Positions 47,066 through 57,333 of a stretch of 64,000 nucleotides of DNA are shown here, in pieces. The DNA lies in the NCBI GenBank assembly GCA_014799475.1, contig JAAVHX010000024.1:31555-95554 (forward strand). The letters are read 5' to 3'. Position numbers and translations under genes: made by a program. This DNA comes from Clostridiales bacterium (GTDB taxonomy: Bacteria; Bacillota; Clostridia; Oscillospirales; Oscillospiraceae). Position 1 is the stretch's first letter; each line of letters starts with the position of its first letter. The notes beneath the pieces are model-generated. The model did not search any database. It worked only from the letters and a program-made list of their open reading frames with translations, and had not been told where the DNA came from.

Positions 47066-47100
47066 AAGGACAGCCCTGGGCGGTGCCCAGGGCTGTCCTC
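47066..47100. terminator. Bidirectional terminator between the anti-sigma gene and sigK
   Basis: GGACAGCCCTGGGcggtgCCCAGGGCTGTCC. Confidence 0.85.
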
Positions 47101-47591
47101 AGCTTTTTTCATATTCGAGTTTGAGCTTTTCCAGAGCTTTTTTTTCGATGCGGGATACATAGGACCGGGAGATGCCGCACAGCGACGCGATTTCCCGCTG
47201 GGTAAGGGGAGGACGGTTATCCAGCCCATACCGCAGGCGGATGATGTGGGCCTCCCGCCCGGTGAGGCAGGCGTCCACGCACCGGCGCACCTTGGCGCAG
47301 GCGTCCCGTAGATCCAGCTCCTCCAGCATGTTGTCGTCCACCCGCACCACGTCGATGAGGGACAGGGAGCCGTTTTCACCGTCGCCGTCCAGAGAATCCG
47401 ACAAGGACAGTTCCCCCTGGAGCTTGCGCTGGGCTCTGAAGTACATCAGGATCTCATTTTCGATGCACCGGCTGGCATAGGTAGCAAGCCGCACATTTTT
47501 GTCCGGCTTAAATGTGGACACCCCTTTGATCAGCCCGATGGTTCCAATGGAGATCAGGTCGTCCTGGTCGCCGTTGGGGGTGTAGTACTTT
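47099..47591 (-). CDS. sigK: sigK, 3' segment (sigma-K residues from KKYYTPNGDQDDL to the C-terminus); split gene
   Basis: KKYYTPNGDQDDLISIGTIGLIKGVSTFKPDKNVRLATYASRCIENEILMYFRAQRKLQGELSLSDSLDGDGENGSLSLIDVV...RLRYGLDNRPPLTQREIASLCGISRSYVSRIEKKALEKLKLEYEKS; no start codon or RBS at the 5' edge. Confidence 0.92.
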
Positions 47592-49221
47592 TTAGACGGT
47601 TGAAGCGGAAGGAAGAACTTGGCCGATGGAAAACGACCCCGGTGGGGTCGCCAAATTTCAGGTGGATATCCAGGTGTATTTCCTCTTTTGTGCTGCCTTT
47701 TTTGACGACTATATGGTCTAAAATCGTGGTCACCAGGGCGGAATTGATGCCGTTTTGGAAGGAGAGCTCCTGCTCTAAAGCTGCTCTGACTTCACCAAGC
47801 TGCTCAGTGGTTTTCCGTCCCTTTTCCGCTTCCGTTCGGAGCGCCGTCAAGCGGCCCTCCAACGCTTCGATTTGCTCATTGAAACCGTCATTGCGCTGCT
47901 TGAATTCCGCCATGGAGATGATGCCTTCAATGCTCATCTCCAGCAGACGGTCTTTTTTTGCCTGGATGACGGATATATCTTCCTGGACACGTTGGGTGTC
48001 CTGAGCGTAGTCGTGCTCGTCCGGGACAGACTGGATCATTTTTATCAGCGTGTCAATGATGGCCCGTTTGTCTTGGATCAGTTGGGTAAATATGTGGGCC
48101 ATGATCTGATCCAACTCTGTAGTCCGCAATTGGGGCGCGGAGCACCCCGCCCGTCCCCGGTTGCGGTACTCTCGGCATTGCCAGGTTTCTGTCTGGCCTT
48201 TGGAACTTTTGATCACCTGCCGGTGAAAACTGGTTCTGTGCTCTTCGCAGATAATTTTCCCGCTGTAGGGGTAGCGGTTGTGGAACTCGGCAGCACTCTG
48301 GTGGGACATCATCTGCTGGCTGCGGCGCTTGTAGAGTGCATTGGCCCGATTCCACAGCTCCTCGGACACGATGGCCGGGATAGATGGATCCGGATAGGTG
48401 ACCCACTCACTCTCGTCCAGGAAAATCTTTCGCTTGCTGCGGTAGTCCACAGTTTGACTTTTATTTGCGCAGTACCAGCCTTTGTATTTGGGGTTGCAGA
48501 GGATATGGCGGATAGTGAGCACATTGAAAGCATTGCCCTGGCGGCTGGTGAAACCCTCGTCATACAGGGTCTGAGAGATGCGCCGGATGCCCATCTGTTG
48601 ATTGGCGTAGAGCTCGAAGATTCGCTGTACCACTTGAGCCTCGGTTTCGTTGATCGTCAGCACGCAGTCCTTTTTGTCATAGCCCCACAGTTTGTCGTTC
48701 CCCAGTACGTGGCCATTTTTGATGGCCTGCCGAAAGCCAAATTTCAGTCGTTCCGACAGTTTGCGCACCTCGTCTTGGGCTACGCCCGCCATGACTACCA
48801 GACGAAACTCGCTGTCGCTGTCTAGAGTATTAATGTTGTCGTTCTGAAACAGCACCCCTACATCGTGTTCCAACAGCTCCTGGGTGTATTTGATGCTGTC
48901 CAGGGTGGAACGGGAAAAGCGGGATATCTCCTTCGTGATGATGAAGTCAAAGCGCCCCGCTTTGGCGTCCGTTATCATCCGATTGAAGCTATCCCGCTTT
49001 TTTGTGCTTGTCCCGCTGATTCCTTCGTCCACGTAGCCTTGGATGTAGGTCCAGTTTCGTTTTTCTTGGATGAACTGTGTGTAGTACTGCACCTGATTTT
49101 CCAAACTGTTAAGCTGCTCATCCTTGTCGGTGGAAACCCGGGCGTAGAAGGTCACCCGCAGGGGGAGGTCGAAAATGGTCTTTCCGTTGCGCATTTCATT
49201 GCGGATTCTAAGTATATTCAC
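47554..49221 (-). CDS. Large serine recombinase (SpoIVCA-like), adjacent to the attachment site
   Basis: RVTFYARVSTDKDEQLNSLENQVQYYTQFIQEK...GYVDEGISGTSTKKRDSFNRMITDAKAGRFDFIITKEISRFSRSTLDSI resolvase domain, recombinase domain, zinc ribbon, coiled coil; the last codons and stop lie in sigK DNA. Confidence 0.95.
   Translation of the reverse strand: MNILRIRNEMRNGKTIFDLPLRVTFYARVSTDKDEQLNSLENQVQYYTQFIQEKRNWTYIQGYVDEGISGTSTKKRDSFNRMITDAKAGRFDFIITKEISRFSRSTLDSIKYTQELLEHDVGVLFQNDNINTLDSDSEFRLVVMAGVAQDEVRKLSERLKFGFRQAIKNGHVLGNDKLWGYDKKDCVLTINETEAQVVQRIFELYANQQMGIRRISQTLYDEGFTSRQGNAFNVLTIRHILCNPKYKGWYCANKSQTVDYRSKRKIFLDESEWVTYPDPSIPAIVSEELWNRANALYKRRSQQMMSHQSAAEFHNRYPYSGKIICEEHRTSFHRQVIKSSKGQTETWQCREYRNRGRAGCSAPQLRTTELDQIMAHIFTQLIQDKRAIIDTLIKMIQSVPDEHDYAQDTQRVQEDISVIQAKKDRLLEMSIEGIISMAEFKQRNDGFNEQIEALEGRLTALRTEAEKGRKTTEQLGEVRAALEQELSFQNGINSALVTTILDHIVVKKGSTKEEIHLDIHLKFGDPTGVVFHRPSSSFRFNRLKSTTPPTATRTT
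47590..47612. other. Attachment site half (recombinase-proximal end)
   Basis: Plus strand TTTTAGACGGTTGAAGC; arm ACGGTTGAAGC 47596-47606. Confidence 0.75.
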
Positions 49222-49390
49222 GCTGTCCCGCCTCCTTTGTCAAGCACACAGGATACCTGAAAAGCGGGGGAATATCTATCACAGAATGTACCAAATCCAC
49301 CGCGTTTAAATAGGTGGTTTTCGACAAAAGACCTTGGTCGTGAACCGTGTCCAGAAGGACGCTCATCAGCTCTTGCTGTGCGCTTTCCAT
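49208..49390 (-). CDS. Small (60 aa) protein overlapping the recombinase start
   Basis: MESAQQELMSVLLDTVHDQGLLSKTTYLNAVDLVHSVIDIPPLFRYPVCLTKEAGQREYT; overlaps the next gene by 14 bp. Confidence 0.6.
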   Translation of the reverse strand: MESAQQELMSVLLDTVHDQGLLSKTTYLNAVDLVHSVIDIPPLFRYPVCLTKEAGQREYT

Positions 49391-49446
49391 GTTGCATCAC
49401 CTCGTTTTATGGATATGTGGGGACATAAAGGAAAATGCCGGATGCG

Positions 49447-49818
49447 TTAGCATCCGGCATTTATTTCTTGTGCTCTCGTTAAGTCAAAGCGAGCGATTAA
49501 GTATTCAGGATAGACCGCACCTGGAATCCGATAGGATTTATCCACATCCCATTCCATTTTTGCAGCAAGCAACTGGCAAAGCGCTCTGCTGCGGATGCGA
49601 AAGCTGACGTGTTTTCCCGGCAGATTCTTGTACAGCGCTTTCGGAACGCGAAATGACGTAAACTCCTTTTTGTGATATGGTTGTATGGCCAATTGCATCG
49701 TGTCAGGGTTGATTAGAAAACGGACATAGGCTGGGTGTCCCATTTTCTGAAAAACGCTGCAAAATACATAAACAGTATCGCAGCCCAGATAGAATGAAAG
49801 ATATGCGGGTTCAGCCAT
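49447..49818 (-). CDS. Hypothetical protein, member of a paralogous recombinase-associated domain family
   Basis: VRFLINPDTMQLAIQPY...FRIRSRALCQLLAAKMEWDVDKSYRIPGAVYPEYLIARFDL aligns with neighbouring ORFs. Confidence 0.7.
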   Translation of the reverse strand: MAEPAYLSFYLGCDTVYVFCSVFQKMGHPAYVRFLINPDTMQLAIQPYHKKEFTSFRVPKALYKNLPGKHVSFRIRSRALCQLLAAKMEWDVDKSYRIPGAVYPEYLIARFDLTRAQEINAGC

Positions 49819-50260
49819 TTTCCTGTACCAGCTTCATGCCCTGCCAGAGCTCGGGCTGGTTGAAGTCAAATAGAAGCATCAGTTTCTTATCAAATTTGAC
49901 CAGCTTCCCATTGGTGCGGTATTGATATGTATCGTCCCAGCCCCATTTTGTGAAGAGCTGACGGGTGAATAGGGAACACTCCATCTTGGTGGTTTTCGGC
50001 TTGGACGGATCACGGATCCAGTTAATGGCATCCGGCTCCTTGGAGGGCACAGGTTTGACGAGGATTTTCCGCTGCTCAAGATTGACAAGCATCTGCACCG
50101 ATTCACAGTTGTTCAAAGCACTGTAAGCGGGCACGTTGAATGAAATGGCGGTATTCCATAATTTTAGCGATGGTTCCAGCATCCGGCTGAAATAGAGACC
50201 GCGTACTACTTGAAAGCCGTCCATACTGATGTCGCCGATCACAAAATCTGTCTGTCCCAT
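49811..50260 (-). CDS. Hypothetical protein, same paralogous domain family
   Basis: GFQVVRG...ISFNVPAYSALNNCESVQMLVNLEQRKILVKPV...INWI...MECSLFTRQLFTKWGWDDTYQYRTNGKLVKFDKKLMLLFDF. Confidence 0.72.
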   Translation of the reverse strand: MGQTDFVIGDISMDGFQVVRGLYFSRMLEPSLKLWNTAISFNVPAYSALNNCESVQMLVNLEQRKILVKPVPSKEPDAINWIRDPSKPKTTKMECSLFTRQLFTKWGWDDTYQYRTNGKLVKFDKKLMLLFDFNQPELWQGMKLVQENG

Positions 50261-50273
50261 ATCACAATACCTC

Positions 50274-50885
50274 CTATGCGTTGTCTGTGGTCACGTAGCC
50301 GTCCGCAAGGTCGATTTTATAAGCTTCCTCGTGCCGTTCTACGGGAGTCCCAAAATAATCCCGCCAATTCTCCGGCAAATAAGAGCGCCTCTTTTTCGAT
50401 TCGGTAGTGACAAACAACTCAAAATCTGATAAATTAAAAAGAAACAGCACTTCGCTTCCATAGACGGCGGGCTTCCCCAGCATCTTGTAGCGGTACCGCC
50501 TGTCCCATTGCATAAGGTCAAACAGCTTCGCCGCAAAGATATGGCAGCGCATATCCCGATTTCTGCGTTCTTTCTCACCGCCGCCGTTTGCCCAGCGCAG
50601 GGAATCCGGCGCGTCCGGGTCACAGGGGCGAATAATCAGCCTGCGCTGCTCCGGATGGATCAGCAGTTGGATGTGGGTGACGCTGGGGAACCGGCGCAGG
50701 CAGGCCATGTTGAATTTGATGCGGTCTGCCCAGACGGTGATAGCCGGTTCCCTTGTATGCGCAAACAACTCTGCCTTTGTGACCTGGTATCCCGCAAGAT
50801 CGATGATTTCCTGATCTTCGGCTGTCTCATCTAATGGTCTGATCTCATTGAATATATCTTGGTTGTCAATTTGCATTTGCAACAC
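50274..50885 (-). CDS. Hypothetical protein, same paralogous domain family
   Basis: GYQVTKAELF...IKFNMACLRRFPSVTHIQLLIHPEQRRLIIRPC...LRWA...MRCHIFAAKLFDLMQWDRRYRYKMLGKPAVYGSEVLFLFNL...YLPENWRDYFG. Confidence 0.75.
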   Translation of the reverse strand: MLQMQIDNQDIFNEIRPLDETAEDQEIIDLAGYQVTKAELFAHTREPAITVWADRIKFNMACLRRFPSVTHIQLLIHPEQRRLIIRPCDPDAPDSLRWANGGGEKERRNRDMRCHIFAAKLFDLMQWDRRYRYKMLGKPAVYGSEVLFLFNLSDFELFVTTESKKRRSYLPENWRDYFGTPVERHEEAYKIDLADGYVTTDNA

Positions 50886-52704
50886 CTGTCCTCTGCCGTA
50901 TGTTTTCGATGCTCATTTGTAGCTCCTCCTCAGAGACGGGGGATACTTTCGTACAGCCAGGAACCAAGTGACTTTTTGCCTGCGCGTTCCAGCCAGTATG
51001 GGAGCTGAGATAGTAAAAACCGTTGTGGATGCTGTATGCATAGAATTCTTCACCGAACGCACTTTCCCATCCCTCGGGAAGCAAATCGATCCGACGTGAC
51101 CGCCTAAATCCGGCGGCCAAACTGCTCTGCTGCACAGTAACGACGGGTACCGCATTTGTGACATCGAATATGATGATTTCGTCCTGTCCAGAGGAAGCCC
51201 AGGTGCCCCTGACTCGGTATTGATATTCGGGATTCCAATCCATGATTTGAAATAATGCGGCGGAGAAATACTGACAGCGCAGGGTTTTTGAGGAAATGGG
51301 ACGCTCAGCGTCGACGCGCCAGCGGATACTGTTTATATCCAGCTCCCCGCAGGGGCGGATGGCCAGCTTTCGCTGCGATGGGTGGATTAGAAGTTGGACA
51401 TACCCCACATCCAAAAATTTGCGTTGGCATTCATGGTTGAAACTGATTTTTTGATCTGTGATCGTGATGCAAGGACACTCGGCACGGCGCATCATAAATT
51501 GGCCGCGTATTACCTGATAACCTGTCAGATTAAACGCACTGAACTGGTTGCGCCGGAGACGGAGTCTCCTGTGCTCTGTGCCTATGCTGTTTGAAGCTTC
51601 GAAATAAGTATTTGGATCATCGTTGATCCAATGGTGGTCAACCGGGACGAATCCCCGGAATATGCCGTCATCAATGACATGCAAGACCGGAAGCCCCCCG
51701 CGCAAATGATGCTTTTTGTTTTCCAGCAGGATTTGTGCCGCCTCAAACTTTTCTACAGGAATGATTGCTTCATGTTGGTTCGTATAGAGGTACTGATCAC
51801 GATCCTGGCGGTTCCGTTTCTTTTTGTGCTCAAAAACATCAGCAGTAAAGGTTTTCCATGTCAAAATGCTGCCGCAGTAGCGTTCATTTCGTAAAATATA
51901 ATTCAAGGATCCTTCGCTCCAGCTGCTGCGCCCTGTTTTTGTGGGGACGCCTGCTTCCGTTAGAATCTCTGCGATCGCGCACAGTGGATAGCCTGTGAGG
52001 AAAGCGTCAAATATAAAGCGGACAACTTCCGCTTCTTCTGCTACAATTTGCAGCTTTGCGCTCTGCACATATCGGCCGCTGGCATCCCGTTGGCGGGAGT
52101 AGCCATATGGTTCCGGGATTAGCAGCCGTTTTTCTGACTTGAAGCGTTCGGACAACGACCAAACCATGCTCTCGCTTTTTTTGATGGATTCTTCCTGGGC
52201 AAAGGTTGCCAAGAGGGACAGCTTCAATTCGGAGTCCTCCGACAGGGTGAAAAGGTTATCTGTTTCAAAAAAGACGCCTATTGGCGGAGTGTGGTTTTTC
52301 AGCCGCCGAACCAGAGATACACAGTCCACCAGGTTCCGGGCGAAGCGTGAGACGCTTTTTGTGAGGATCAGGTCATATTCTCCTGCCCAGCAGGCTTCCA
52401 GCATAGCGTTGAACTGATCTCGGTTCTTCAATGACGTCCCGGAAATTCCCTCGTCGGCGTATATTTTTCTTAAGTCCCAGTTTTTGTGTTTCCCAGCGAG
52501 GTTTTGATAATGCTCCGTCTGAAGTTCGAATGAGGATAGTTGCATATCGCTGTCTGTGGACACGCGGCAATATGCGCAGGCTTTCAATATCCGGCCTTCC
52601 GCAAAGGGATCCAGCTTGGCTTTTGCGGGAATAAAGTGCCGTTCAGGGTTCCCGCCTGTTTTGTTTGCGTTGGAGCCCTGTTGCATTTCAGAAAACATTG
52701 CCAA
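50866..52704 (-). CDS. Serine recombinase with atypical C-terminal domain homologous to the adjacent small ORFs
   Basis: ILKACAYCRVSTDSDMQLSSFELQTEHYQNLAGKHKNWDLRKIYADEGISGTSLKNRDQFNAMLEACWAGEYDLILTKSVSRFARN; C-terminus GYQVIRGQF...YVQLLIHPSQRKLAIRPC...LRCQYFSAALFQIMDWNPEYQYRVRG. Confidence 0.93.
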   Translation of the reverse strand: MAMFSEMQQGSNANKTGGNPERHFIPAKAKLDPFAEGRILKACAYCRVSTDSDMQLSSFELQTEHYQNLAGKHKNWDLRKIYADEGISGTSLKNRDQFNAMLEACWAGEYDLILTKSVSRFARNLVDCVSLVRRLKNHTPPIGVFFETDNLFTLSEDSELKLSLLATFAQEESIKKSESMVWSLSERFKSEKRLLIPEPYGYSRQRDASGRYVQSAKLQIVAEEAEVVRFIFDAFLTGYPLCAIAEILTEAGVPTKTGRSSWSEGSLNYILRNERYCGSILTWKTFTADVFEHKKKRNRQDRDQYLYTNQHEAIIPVEKFEAAQILLENKKHHLRGGLPVLHVIDDGIFRGFVPVDHHWINDDPNTYFEASNSIGTEHRRLRLRRNQFSAFNLTGYQVIRGQFMMRRAECPCITITDQKISFNHECQRKFLDVGYVQLLIHPSQRKLAIRPCGELDINSIRWRVDAERPISSKTLRCQYFSAALFQIMDWNPEYQYRVRGTWASSGQDEIIIFDVTNAVPVVTVQQSSLAAGFRRSRRIDLLPEGWESAFGEEFYAYSIHNGFYYLSSHTGWNAQAKSHLVPGCTKVSPVSEEELQMSIENIRQRTGVANAN

Positions 52705-52707
52705 TCA

Positions 52708-52800
52708 TCGTCCTTTTGGTATCCTTTCTGGATGTTGTCACTTTTAGTATAATACCGATGCGGAATTAAGTCAATAATTATTTTTCCGTTTTGGTATTTA
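52708..52800. promoter_or_regulatory. Divergent control region with repeated operator-like half-sites
   Basis: CCTTTTGGTAT, ATACCGATGCGG, CCGTTTTGGTAT between divergent recombinase and XRE genes. Confidence 0.45.
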
Positions 52801-52822
52801 TTTTGGCGTTAGGGGTGGTTTT

Positions 52823-53146
52823 ATGAATTTGAAGCAGCTTCGGGCAATCAAACGCGTTTCGCAAAAGGAGGTCAGTTCTTGTCTCGGCTGCTCTCCGGTG
52901 GTTTATTCACGCTACGAGACCGGGGAAAGGGAGCCTTCCCTTGAAATGTTGGGGAAGTTAGCCGACTATTTTGGCGTGTCCACCGATTGCGTTCTTGGGC
53001 GGGAAACGATTGCGCGGATCCCCATGAGTGAGTTTGAGGTTCAGCTCATTGAGGCCGCACGATACGCGGATACCCGTGCGAAAGAGGATGCGCTTGCTAT
53101 GCTTAAGGCCCACTGCGTTGATGCGAAAAAAGAGGGCCTTGCATGA
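52823..53146 (+). CDS. XRE family helix-turn-helix transcriptional regulator
   Basis: MNLKQLRAIKRVSQKEVSSCLGCSPVVYSRYETGEREPSLEMLGKLADYFGVSTDCVLGRE. Confidence 0.93.
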   Translation: MNLKQLRAIKRVSQKEVSSCLGCSPVVYSRYETGEREPSLEMLGKLADYFGVSTDCVLGRETIARIPMSEFEVQLIEAARYADTRAKEDALAMLKAHCVDAKKEGLA

Positions 53147-53204
53147 TGGCCCCCAATAATGTAATTTACTTGGAGACTGGCCACGAATAGCGGTTTGGAT
53201 GATT

Positions 53205-54131
53205 TTAGAGCGAAGTGCTGAATTTTCTGGCGCGTCCCTTCATTCTTTGCACCAGTTCAAAAGTACCTTTTTCAATAATTGGCTCATGAGCGTCCTCTAC
53301 CAGATAGGTGTCAAGCTGCCCTTGATTCTTTTCCCCCTGCCGGTCAAAAAATCGGCCGTGAAGGTTTTCTGCATCCGCACCTCGCCAATGTACTTTGCAT
53401 TGCTAAGCATCCGGTCAATGGTAGAGGTGCTCCATTCGGCTTTGCCTGTTACCGTTTTAATCCCATGTTCCTCCAGATACCGCTTGATTTTGCGCACCCC
53501 GTTGCCCTGGATGTAGAGGTCGAAGATTTTACACACGACCTCAGCTTCCTCCGGCACGATTTGCAGGATGCCGTTCGGCCCTTTGGTGTAGCCGAGAAAC
53601 TGTGTGTGGTTCAGCACAGTTTTCCCGCTCCTCATGCGGTGACGGATGCCGAACTTGATATTCTCGCTGCGGAAATGGCTCTCAGCCTGGTCAAGGGCCG
53701 CAAGCTGGTCGATCATACTATCGCTAATATTCAAGGTGTTCAGTCCTCCACTTTCGATGTAAACTCCGATATTCATTTTCTTCAACCTCCTGATTTGACG
53801 GATAGTTTCCAACATATCCCGACCAAAACGGCTGAGAGACTTCACCAGGATCAAATCGACTTTTCTGCTGGTGCAGTCTCTCATGAGTTGCTGGTAGCCA
53901 GGACGTTGATCAGTGCGAGTGCCAGATGCAATATCGGAATAGACCGCGACCAATATCCAATCGGGATGGTTTTGGATGTATCTTGTATAGTAGTCAATTT
54001 GGGCTTCCAAAACTTCGTTGCTGTTCTTTTTGCTTTGTACTGACGCGGCAGTAGGCCGCAACCTGGAGCGGTTGGTTTACTGCTGATGTCTGTTGTGCTG
54101 TCTTTAGAATCGCAGCTACTGTCTTGGACAT
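53205..54131 (-). pseudogene. Decayed serine recombinase (at least two frameshifts)
   Basis: N-term MSKTVAAILK...VAAYCRVSTKQKEQ in one frame; body NEVLEAQIDYYTRYIQNHPDWILVAVYSDIASGT... in another; C-term YLVEDAHEPIIEKGTFELVQRMKGRARKFSTSL* shifted again. Confidence 0.8.
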
Positions 54132-54138
54132 AACAAAG

Positions 54139-54177
54139 CCTCCATGATTATTGCTGTATAGCAGTATATCATGGAGG
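54139..54177. repeat. 39-bp near-perfect palindrome
   Basis: CCTCCATGATTATTGCTGTATAGCAGTATATCATGGAGG. Confidence 0.8.
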
Positions 54178-54189
54178 TTTTAAATTAGA

Positions 54190-54234
54190 AAAGCTACATT
54201 CTAACCCTGTGTAGCAAGGCCAAAATGTAGCTTT
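54190..54234. repeat. Inverted repeat AAAGCTACATT ... AATGTAGCTTT
   Basis: Perfect 11-bp arms, ~23-nt loop. Confidence 0.75.
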
Positions 54235-54238
54235 CAAC

Positions 54239-54266
54239 TTGGTCGGGCAGGCGGGACTCGAACTCA
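54239..54266 (-). other. tRNA 3'-end-like fragment (T-loop plus acceptor strand plus CCA)
   Basis: Minus strand GTGAGTTCGAGTCCCGCCTGCCCGACCA; no D or anticodon arm upstream. Confidence 0.4.
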
Positions 54267-54385
54267 CACATCGTTGTATATACACTGAATATAGTTGAAA
54301 AAAGTGTTGCAAATATAGAAAAGTCGTTTGACTTTTTGTGATTATGTGCTATACTGAAAACATAGTCAATTTGGAGGTGATGCCC

Positions 54386-55699
54386 ATGTATCGAATAGCA
54401 ATGGAACAGATGCGGAAATGGAAGGCGAGAAAAAGGCGCAAACCGCTTATTATCCGCGGGGCCCGTCAGGTAGGGAAGACCTGGCTTATGAAGGAATTTG
54501 GGGCTAATGAATATAAGCAGGTTGTTTACATCAATTTTGATAACAACCAACGTATGAAAAAACTATTTGAAGGTGGTTTGGAGGTTGAGCGTCTGCTTAC
54601 GGGGCTTGAACTGTATGCGGGGCACAAGATTGATCCATCCAACACCCTATTGATTTTCGACGAAGTGCAGGAGGTGCCTCAAGCCTTATCCAGTCTAAAG
54701 TACTTTAATGAGGATGCGCCACAATACCAGATTGTCTGTGCTGGCAGCCTGCTGGGCGTGGCATTGCATCACGGGACATCGTTCCCAGTAGGAAAAGTAG
54801 AGTTTCTTGATCTTTACCCGCTGTCCTTCTTTGAATTTTTGATGGCGATGGGGAAGGGGCAGTATGTGAAGCTTCTGGAAAAAAGCGACTTTGAAATGGC
54901 AATCACATTCAAGCAGGATTACGCCGACTTGCTAAAGCACTACTACTATGTTGGAGGTATGCCGGAAGTCGTGCAGGCTTTTGCGGACGACAGGGACTTC
55001 AATGAGGTGCGGGAGATCCAGCAGCGTATTCTGGCGGCGTATGAGCAGGACTTTTCCAAGCACGCTCCGAATGAAGCGGTGCCCCGTATTCGGATGCTGT
55101 GGAACAGCATCCCAGCGCAGTTGACAAAAGAAAATAAGAAGTTTATCTATGGCCTTGTCAAAGAAGGCGCGCGGGCAAAGGAATACGAATTGGCCATGCT
55201 CTGGCTTACAGATTGTGGGCTTGTCCACAAGGTACACCGGGTCAATGTGCCAAATCTGCCGTTGAAAGCGTACGAGGATTTAAAGGCGTTCAAGCTGTTC
55301 CTGGTGGATGTGGGGCTACTATCCTGTATGGTGGGGCTCCGACAGGACGTCCTGTTGGATGGCAATGCTTTGTTCAAGGAGTTCAAAGGCGCGCTGACAG
55401 AGCAATATGTGCTGCAGCAGTTAAAGACGATCAAAGGGCTCAATATCTACTACTGGACCGCGGAACGCGGGACGGCGGAAGTAGATTTTGTGATCGACAA
55501 TGGTACAGATGTATTCCCTGTGGAGGTCAAAGCGGAGGCAAATCTCCAGGCCAAAAGCTTAAAGGTATATCATGAGAAGTTCACGCCGAAGCTGTCGATT
55601 CGAACCTCTATGGCGGATTACAAGAGGGAAGAGTGGCTACTGAACCTGCCGTTGTGGGCGGTTGAATGCTTGAATATCAAATATAAGGAGGTAAAGTAA
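54386..55699 (+). CDS. ATP-binding protein, AAA_14 + DUF4143
   Basis: MYRIAMEQMRKWKARKRRKPLIIRGARQVGKTWLMKEFGANEYKQVVYINFD...LLIFDEVQEVPQALSSLKYF...ERGTAEVDFVIDNGTDVFPVEVKAE; promoter TTGACT-N16-TATACT at 54328-54355. Confidence 0.93.
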   Translation: MYRIAMEQMRKWKARKRRKPLIIRGARQVGKTWLMKEFGANEYKQVVYINFDNNQRMKKLFEGGLEVERLLTGLELYAGHKIDPSNTLLIFDEVQEVPQALSSLKYFNEDAPQYQIVCAGSLLGVALHHGTSFPVGKVEFLDLYPLSFFEFLMAMGKGQYVKLLEKSDFEMAITFKQDYADLLKHYYYVGGMPEVVQAFADDRDFNEVREIQQRILAAYEQDFSKHAPNEAVPRIRMLWNSIPAQLTKENKKFIYGLVKEGARAKEYELAMLWLTDCGLVHKVHRVNVPNLPLKAYEDLKAFKLFLVDVGLLSCMVGLRQDVLLDGNALFKEFKGALTEQYVLQQLKTIKGLNIYYWTAERGTAEVDFVIDNGTDVFPVEVKAEANLQAKSLKVYHEKFTPKLSIRTSMADYKREEWLLNLPLWAVECLNIKYKEVK

Positions 55700-55700
55700 T

Positions 55701-56315
55701 ATGGCATTAACGACATCCTATTTGACCTCAGTGAAAAACTTGGATAGTATAATAAACTCAGTTGTAAATGCTAAGGCTCCAGACCGTTTTACGAATAAGT
55801 TCTTAGAGGATTTGGGATTTAAAAGCAGCAATGATCGATTGGTGATAGGCGTTTTTAAGGCGCTGGGGCTTATTGATGATAGCGGGCAACCGTTGCAACG
55901 TTATTATGAGATGTTGGATCAAACCAGAACAGGAGAAGTTTTGGCAGTCGGAATACAAGAAGCCTACGAAGACCTTTTTAATCTTCGGAAAGATGCACAG
56001 AATTTAACTAACGACGAAATAAAAAACAAATTGCGGACTCTTACTCAAGGACAAAAAAGCGATGACGTGATTTCAAAAATGTCAAGCACTTTTCGTGCCT
56101 TATGTGATTTAGCGGACTGGTCAAAACCGCTACAGCATAAGCAAACTGGATCCATTCAAGAAAATGTTGTTCAGACACCCAAAATTGAGCAGGAAGAGAA
56201 GGTGTCTGGAGGTGGAATGAACTTACACTATAATATTCAAGTCCACCTTCCTGAAACAACAAATATGGCTGTTTATGATGCGATTTTTCAAAGCCTTAAA
56301 AAGCATTTGTTTTGA
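55701..56315 (+). CDS. DUF5343 domain-containing protein
   Basis: TSYLTSVKNLDSIINSVVNAKAPDRFTNKFLEDLGFKSSNDRLVIGVFKALGLIDDSGQPLQRYYEMLD. Confidence 0.8.
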   Translation: MALTTSYLTSVKNLDSIINSVVNAKAPDRFTNKFLEDLGFKSSNDRLVIGVFKALGLIDDSGQPLQRYYEMLDQTRTGEVLAVGIQEAYEDLFNLRKDAQNLTNDEIKNKLRTLTQGQKSDDVISKMSSTFRALCDLADWSKPLQHKQTGSIQENVVQTPKIEQEEKVSGGGMNLHYNIQVHLPETTNMAVYDAIFQSLKKHLF

Positions 56316-56908
56316 GGGTGTTTGATATGGATGATGACAAATTATATGCATTTGTGTTACGTGGGGAACTCACTAAGGTCGCATTGGGAAAAACTGAAGT
56401 TGTCAGTAAACATTCATCGTCCGATGCTTTAGTCCAAGAATATATAGAAACGCTATCATTGGATCTACTGGATGATGAGTGTATTAATGCTTCGAAACCA
56501 ATGGCAACAGTCTATACGGCTATTTCTGCATTTGAAAATATGGTTCGTCGATTCATTTCAAAAACACTCATGGAACATAGGGGAGAAAATTGGTGGGAAA
56601 CCTGTGTATCTGAAAGAATCCGAAAATTAGCTGAATCGCGTAGAATAGAAGAGGAAAAAATACGATGGCATACGCAACGCGGCTATTCTATGATTAATTA
56701 TACGGAATTTGGAGATTTGATCTCGATTATGCAACAGAACATCGTGCTTTTTGAACCGCACATTGTCTCAATTGATTGGGCACGACAGATAATACAAACA
56801 CTTGAACGTTCAAGAAATGTAATTATGCACAGTGGTGAATTAGAGCGTAAAGATGTGGAGCGGGTTGGCACAAATATTAGAGATTGGATTAGTCAAGTTG
56901 GAGGTTGA
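56312..56908 (+). CDS. Swt1-type HEPN domain protein
   Basis: TAISAFENMVRRFISKTLMEHRGENWWETCVSERIRKLAESRRIEEEKIRWHTQRGYSMINYTEFGDLISIM...RSRNVIMHSGEL (HEPN RxxxxH motif); ATG alternative at 56327. Confidence 0.78.
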   Translation: MRVFDMDDDKLYAFVLRGELTKVALGKTEVVSKHSSSDALVQEYIETLSLDLLDDECINASKPMATVYTAISAFENMVRRFISKTLMEHRGENWWETCVSERIRKLAESRRIEEEKIRWHTQRGYSMINYTEFGDLISIMQQNIVLFEPHIVSIDWARQIIQTLERSRNVIMHSGELERKDVERVGTNIRDWISQVGG

Positions 56909-56999
56909 ACTTAAGGTAACTGAGCGTTTGCATTCCAATATATGGTCACTTTCCTCGAATATCCAAGGAAAAAGTTCTTGCCTGAGATATGCCACAGAT

Positions 57000-57028
57000 T
57001 CTTTCCTTTTGCTTCACCCGTTGTTCAC
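57000..57028. other. Attachment site half (sigK N-terminal side)
   Basis: Plus strand GCTTCACCCGTTGTTCAC; arm GCTTCACCCGT 57011-57021, core TT (AA on minus) 57024-57025. Confidence 0.75.
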
Positions 57029-57220
57029 AATATGCGCCACCAGGCGCAGGTTGTGCTCGATGAGCTCATCCCGGGCGTCAGAATCGCCCTTTGCCATCCG
57101 TTCCAGACAGTCCTGCTCTTCTTCCCGAGTGAGGGCGCGGGGAAAGGACCCCGTGTTGCCCGCCAGCCGAAGGGTGAAGAACAGCCCGTTCAGCGTCAAT
57201 AACAGCCATGCCGTCCACAT
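57024..57220 (-). CDS. sigK: sigK, 5' segment encoding the pro-sequence and region 2.1 (MWTAWLLLTLNGLFFTLRLAGNTGSFPRAL...LRLVAHIV); split gene
   Basis: ATG at 57220 after GGAGGTGG RBS; reads NN-G-stop immediately past the junction in the integrated state. Confidence 0.9.
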
Positions 57221-57278
57221 GGACACCACCTCCACCTGAAATGTATGCGTGGGCGGCGTGTCCCTATTAGCGGAGAAA

Positions 57279-57322
57279 AAAGGCGCCCGATCCATTGCAG
57301 GAAAGGATCGGGCGCTTTCGTG
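57279..57322 (-). terminator. Terminator of the HK gene (minus strand)
   Basis: GCGCCCGATCC ... GGATCGGGCGCCTTTTTT on the minus strand. Confidence 0.75.
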
Positions 57323-57333
57323 TTTCAACGGTT

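Follow-up and report, generated by a model that had tools for sequence, protein, structure and literature searches.

The 64,000-nucleotide stretch of DNA analysed here (the window) raises the question of what a serine recombinase does with three small proteins that resemble its own tail. Four minus-strand genes are found where the earlier note had placed them: R, a 612-aa serine recombinase with a C-terminal domain that we call D (R612; 50866..52704, from Pfam and an alignment of relatives); A, a 203-aa free-standing D protein (50274..50885; ORF, alignment, HMM and AlphaFold); B, a 149-aa free-standing D protein present only in four-gene modules (49811..50260; alignment, HMM and tree); and C, a shortened D protein of 123 aa (49447..49818; HMM E 1.2e-25, hhalign 99% to A and R). 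R and A overlap by 20 nt, A and B are separated by 13 nt, and B and C overlap by 8 nt, bearing out the operon proposed in that note. A perfect 13-bp hairpin at the end of C (49433..49462, minus strand) is the likely operon terminator. On the other side of R, an intergenic region (52705..52822) with two copies of an 18-nt direct repeat (52714-52731 and 52789-52806), likely operators, separates R from a divergent gene for a Cro/CI-type HTH repressor (52823..53146, plus strand; Pfam HTH_3 2.3e-13). Beyond it lies what remains of a third serine recombinase (254 aa, 53297..54061, minus strand; Resolvase 1.7e-22), approximately 42% identical to the 523-528 aa recombinases that adjoin related R modules. 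By eye, a minus-strand stretch at 54234-54262 resembles the 3' part (T-arm) of a tRNA gene and is perhaps the remnant of an old attachment site.

The pattern that the earlier note had picked out in the C-terminal half of R and in the three small ORFs corresponds to a common domain of ~125 aa, which in R covers about residues 390-527 (51124..51537, minus strand; HMM match and AlphaFold). Local alignment scores were 268 for the R tail with A (z 51), 166 for the R tail with B (z 32), and 191 for A with B (z 38), with lower values for the pairs that include C: 82 with the R tail (z 12), 61 with A (z 7), and 55 with B (z 7). In 1000 shuffles per pair, from which z was calculated, none equalled any of the six real scores. 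Rather than falling into unrelated families, the R, A, and C families joined one another in profile-profile comparison with probabilities of 99-100% (E 1e-18 to 1e-50). Two finer points of the note also held: C is without the N-terminal part of D, and the extra C-terminal block LPExWxxxFG occurs in R and A only. AlphaFold predicts the same two-part structure for D in A and in R, bbabb followed by babb, with a pLDDT of ~90 in both and above 90 in the core of A.

The family had not been recognized from its letters, and searches of Pfam, NCBIfam, and PHROGs returned no family covering D. The A profile had no match among PDB sequences, and Foldseek with D against the PDB gave no solved fold, the best hit being to beta clamps (E 0.018, TM 0.11). 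Against BFVD, Foldseek found only uncharacterised phage proteins, with a TM to target of about 0.6. A motif resemblance had pointed to an AbrB/MraZ-like fold; hhalign against SpoVT-AbrB and MraZ gave a probability of at most 1.5%, and we rejected this assignment, as we did DUF6128 (13.9 bits against a Pfam gathering cut-off of 27, E 0.057). Literature searches for the domain found nothing, and none of the loci checked encodes a protein with two fused D domains.

Judged by its domains, R is a member of the serine recombinase superfamily. Pfam identifies Resolvase (2.5e-22, residues 43-191) and Recombinase PF07508 (8.4e-23, residues 223-328), and the catalytic residues R47, S49, R120, R123, and E172 are invariant in 58 relatives of R. 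Large serine integrases such as the Listeria LI integrase, phiC31 integrase, and SprA/YokA of SPbeta share this Resolvase and recombinase architecture and match the first ~330 residues of R in Foldseek and phmmer searches. R departs from the canonical form in what follows PF07508: it lacks the zinc ribbon with coiled coil, having no match to Zn_ribbon_recom (PF13408) and no invariant cysteine, and D occupies that position. R555, another recombinase of the window, has Zn_ribbon_recom, as do the two partner recombinases of phage PV036411. DNA binding falls to the zinc ribbon of the Listeria integrase, and control of synapsis to the coiled coil of that ribbon (PMC3783163); from its position, D would stand in for these parts in R. 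The closest solved relative of R is PDB 3g13 (E 1.3e-33), a putative conjugative-transposon recombinase of C. difficile of which the catalytic domain alone was solved.

Is the association between D and the recombinase peculiar to this genome? Scanning IMG/VR, phage records, and bacterial genomes, we found R-A-C or R-A-B-C, in the same order and on one strand, at more than 120 clostridial loci in viruses, phages, and bacteria; many are near-duplicates, and a threshold of 85% identity leaves about 57 distinct ones. This order is kept in 122 of 153 D-containing loci, the others being variants or cut at contig or locus ends. R and A lie within 30 nt of each other in 173 of 176 loci and overlap in 154, a count that is overstated because ORFs were started at the first possible start. 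Relatives of A are encoded at 202 places in genome contigs, 80 of which were kept; their titles name mostly Oscillospiraceae, Lachnospiraceae, and other Clostridia, and the few other taxa may be binning errors. Of the 201 genomes in the host's family, 19 have D. Named carriers include Coprococcus comes, Blautia luti, Bilifractor porci, [Ruminococcus] torques, and Anaerocolumna, together with phages filed under Candidatus Heliusvirales.

The earlier note had taken the small ORFs for a recombinase tail amplified into free-standing paralogs, and the comparison corrects this reading in that the amplification is neither recent nor local. In the tree built from 98 D domains, supported branches set off the C, the B, and the R copies, the A copies lying beside those of B, and position labels require 3 changes as compared to a mean of 52 when shuffled; the alignment has few columns, leaving the fine branching unsure. 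This grouping by position, and the order kept across the loci described above, indicate that A, B, C, and the R tail are old, position-specific paralogues.

D also occurs with recombinases that do not contain it. At nine loci (L072, L073, L387, L388, L390, L393, L395, L402, and L405), from at least seven genomes of different genera, a recombinase without D, 340-413 aa long, is followed directly by a free D gene. Full-length versions of this split recombinase, about 400 aa, stop about where the pre-D linker of R meets D, and their closest solved relative is again PDB 3g13 (E 2e-43). In a tree of the recombinase part, R and the split recombinases form one clade with 100/100 support, separate from 23 other large serine recombinases that include R555. 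Thus D, whether in cis or in trans, keeps to a single lineage of recombinases. The fixed order, and the free D found next to recombinases of this clade that lack it, uphold the tie to serine recombinases that the earlier note had seen in one operon, and we consider a functional link of D to the recombinase well supported. Two further units of a 400-aa recombinase and a free D (L448:8220-9843 and L447:3845-5492) lie among ordinary chromosomal genes and are possibly minimal IS-like elements.

In the window, the operon sits inside an interrupted sporulation gene. A ~9.4-kb element (47592-57025) separates the sigK 5' half (57024..57328, minus strand), which ends HIVNNG, from the 3' half (47099..47593, minus strand), which begins SKKYYTPNG; sigK is intact in most of the genus, where the joined genes read HIVKKYYTPNG. 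The inferred crossover core is an AA dinucleotide (57024-57025 and 47592-47593). R555, a 555-aa zinc-ribbon serine recombinase encoded outside the R-A-B-C operon (47554..49221, minus strand), abuts the 3' half and is the likely excisionase of the element. The element also carries an ATPase-like gene and two ORFs of unknown function (54338-56908), which were not found in the corresponding element of a sister genome, G216.

Which of the two recombinases serves sigK? All 30 R555 homologues examined in the host family abut a sigK half, and because of this constancy R555, rather than R612, is likely the sigK recombinase. Only one of the 30, the window itself, has R612 at 1.5 kb or less from R555, and R612 shows no constant association with sigK, whereas R555 has the position that marks a sigK skin recombinase, a gene abutting the interrupted sigK. 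We therefore ruled out R612 for this role, R555 holding the place in all relatives checked. The R555 homologues (L350-L378) point in the same direction as sigK when beside its 3' half or are convergent with it when beside the 5' half, which argues for insertion or flipping of the element in both directions. The sigK skin elements of B. subtilis (SpoIVCA) and C. difficile (CD1231/CD1234) and the gin element of B. cereus likewise interrupt a sporulation gene. Gin, a close parallel to the window element, likewise has three serine recombinase genes with one at the junction, and there only GirC with GirX excises and rebuilds the sporulation gene, girA and girB being dispensable (PMC5595907). By analogy, R612 would be the extra recombinase of the sigK element, here one that carries D.

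Outside the window, an R module lies beside R555 in two more places, intact at L231 and decayed in G216, where R has a stop codon and A is truncated. The modules of the window and of G216 share 97-100% identity, with a pooled dS of 0.08 and a dN/dS of 0.16, whereas R555 has a dS of 0.58, the change being sharp near 49350. From this difference we conclude that the module has its own history, having moved or been exchanged separately from R555. We give nearly even chances to the view that the cassette of this particular genome is non-functional cargo, a prophage remnant caught inside the sigK element and without effect on sporulation. The adjoining HTH gene and recombinase relic match a phage layout, the constant partner of sigK is R555, and the cassette is broken in G216 and absent from the available part of the G228 sigK element, two observations that also count against the functional reading we prefer below. 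Against inertness stand the four intact ORFs of the window with their pooled dN/dS of 0.16 and the intact module at L231.

Elsewhere the module travels with other machinery. An HTH gene adjoins most R modules outside the window, and many Heliusvirales-type loci read HTH, R, A, C, ParB-like, DUF6551, with two convergent serine recombinases downstream, which bear zinc ribbons by Pfam in the one pair checked (L025). ParB-like and DUF6551 genes follow most three-gene R modules (for example L118:4919-6786), and 27 loci have an AAA_25 (RepA/DnaB-like) gene ahead of R. The records of the Candidatus Heliusvirales, temperate gut phages that encode the R-A-C-ParB-DUF6551 operon, annotate R, A, and C as hypothetical, and the main text of the paper describing them makes no mention of recombinases or integrases (PMC9226167). 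In Coprococcus, Blautia, Bilifractor, and Faecalicatena (four named species; L273, L274, L277, L279, and L379-L382), a ~20-kb island occupies the same cpaF-type ATPase gene with the R operon at one end. The two such islands that we read through have three Tn554-like tyrosine recombinases at the opposite end, and that of Bilifractor porci has a type I restriction system in between. A separate integrase thus accompanies the module in all three contexts (sigK element, phages, and cpaF islands), and therefore R-A-(B)-C probably does something other than integrate the element.

Our preferred reading, which we hold tentatively and at just short of an even chance, is that R-A-B-C is a site-specific recombination module, secondary in role, of clostridial mobile elements, temperate phages among them, in which A, B, and C serve R in trans as partner subunits. 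R would be a catalytically complete serine recombinase in which D replaces the part that recognizes sites and controls synapsis. We infer that A, B, and C bind DNA and, through the same domain, join R on its site in a hetero-complex, which would set when, or with which site, R recombines; this would keep the synapsis, directionality, or target choice roles proposed in the earlier note as possible ones. The operon would be under the adjacent Cro/CI-type repressor and probably made on induction, with the element itself placed by another dedicated recombinase: R555 at sigK, the zinc-ribbon pair in many phages, and the Tn554-like trio in cpaF islands. Candidate reactions for R include help with excision, multimer resolution, and inversion. 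That D is also made as two or three stand-alone proteins, encoded in a constant order, suggests a recombination machine of several matching parts. Counting against this reading, our searches found no recombination site for R, the sequence and structure comparisons gave no match marking D as DNA- or protein-binding, and a few D proteins have no recombinase within several kb.

Large serine integrases also work with small trans-acting partners, and A, B, and C could be strict directionality factors, with R alone integrating or inverting and the small proteins only switching it to the reverse reaction. Excision by known serine integrases depends on a small protein acting in trans, CD1234 for CD1231 in the C. 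difficile skin element (PMC5025042) and GirX for GirC (PMC5595907), and the R operon is repressor-linked. Known directionality factors, however, share no significant mutual similarity (PMC5025042), whereas A, B, and C are paralogous to the tail of R itself, and two to three per recombinase, always in the same operon, would be unusual; we consider this alternative unlikely, though a serious rival. We give the same weight to the idea that the module serves the stability or replication of phage or island circles outside the chromosome. R would then resolve multimers, and partition or replication would be the work of the D proteins together with the AAA ATPase or the ParB-like and DUF6551 proteins. 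The ParB-like and DUF6551 genes after most three-gene modules fit it, and so weigh against the preferred reading; the AAA_25 gene of the 27 loci fits it too, and where checked R is never the sole candidate integrase. The window element and several four-gene modules, however, have no ParB, DUF6551, or AAA gene, and the split form seems to require just a recombinase and D. Finally, the D proteins might be regulators that share R's operon and are unconnected with recombination. Some orphan D proteins do lie near HTH, Doc-like, or DUF499-type genes, but D is fused to R, and in the same clade a free D gene comes immediately after recombinases that lack it, making this highly improbable.

A bolder form of the recombination-module reading, possible and, in our estimate, doubtful, is that one recombinase lineage traded its zinc ribbon and coiled coil for a multi-copy D, one fused and up to three in trans, such that a multi-subunit, ordered hetero-complex governs synapsis and direction, starting from a two-gene, apparently IS-like ancestor. 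The serine integrases used in genome engineering are single polypeptides whose direction control is still debated. If the proposal were true, a lineage with its control domain split over several proteins would allow synapsis and directionality to be dissected part by part, and might be a source of recombination tools with tunable direction. Widespread gut phages, too, carry the module, labelled there as hypothetical.

At several loci (L074, L075, L391, L401, and L443-L446), orphan D proteins have no recombinase close by, in some cases within several kb. Their neighbours include an HTH gene, a Doc-like gene, DUF2188-like ORFs, and large DUF499-like genes, and D may have other uses.
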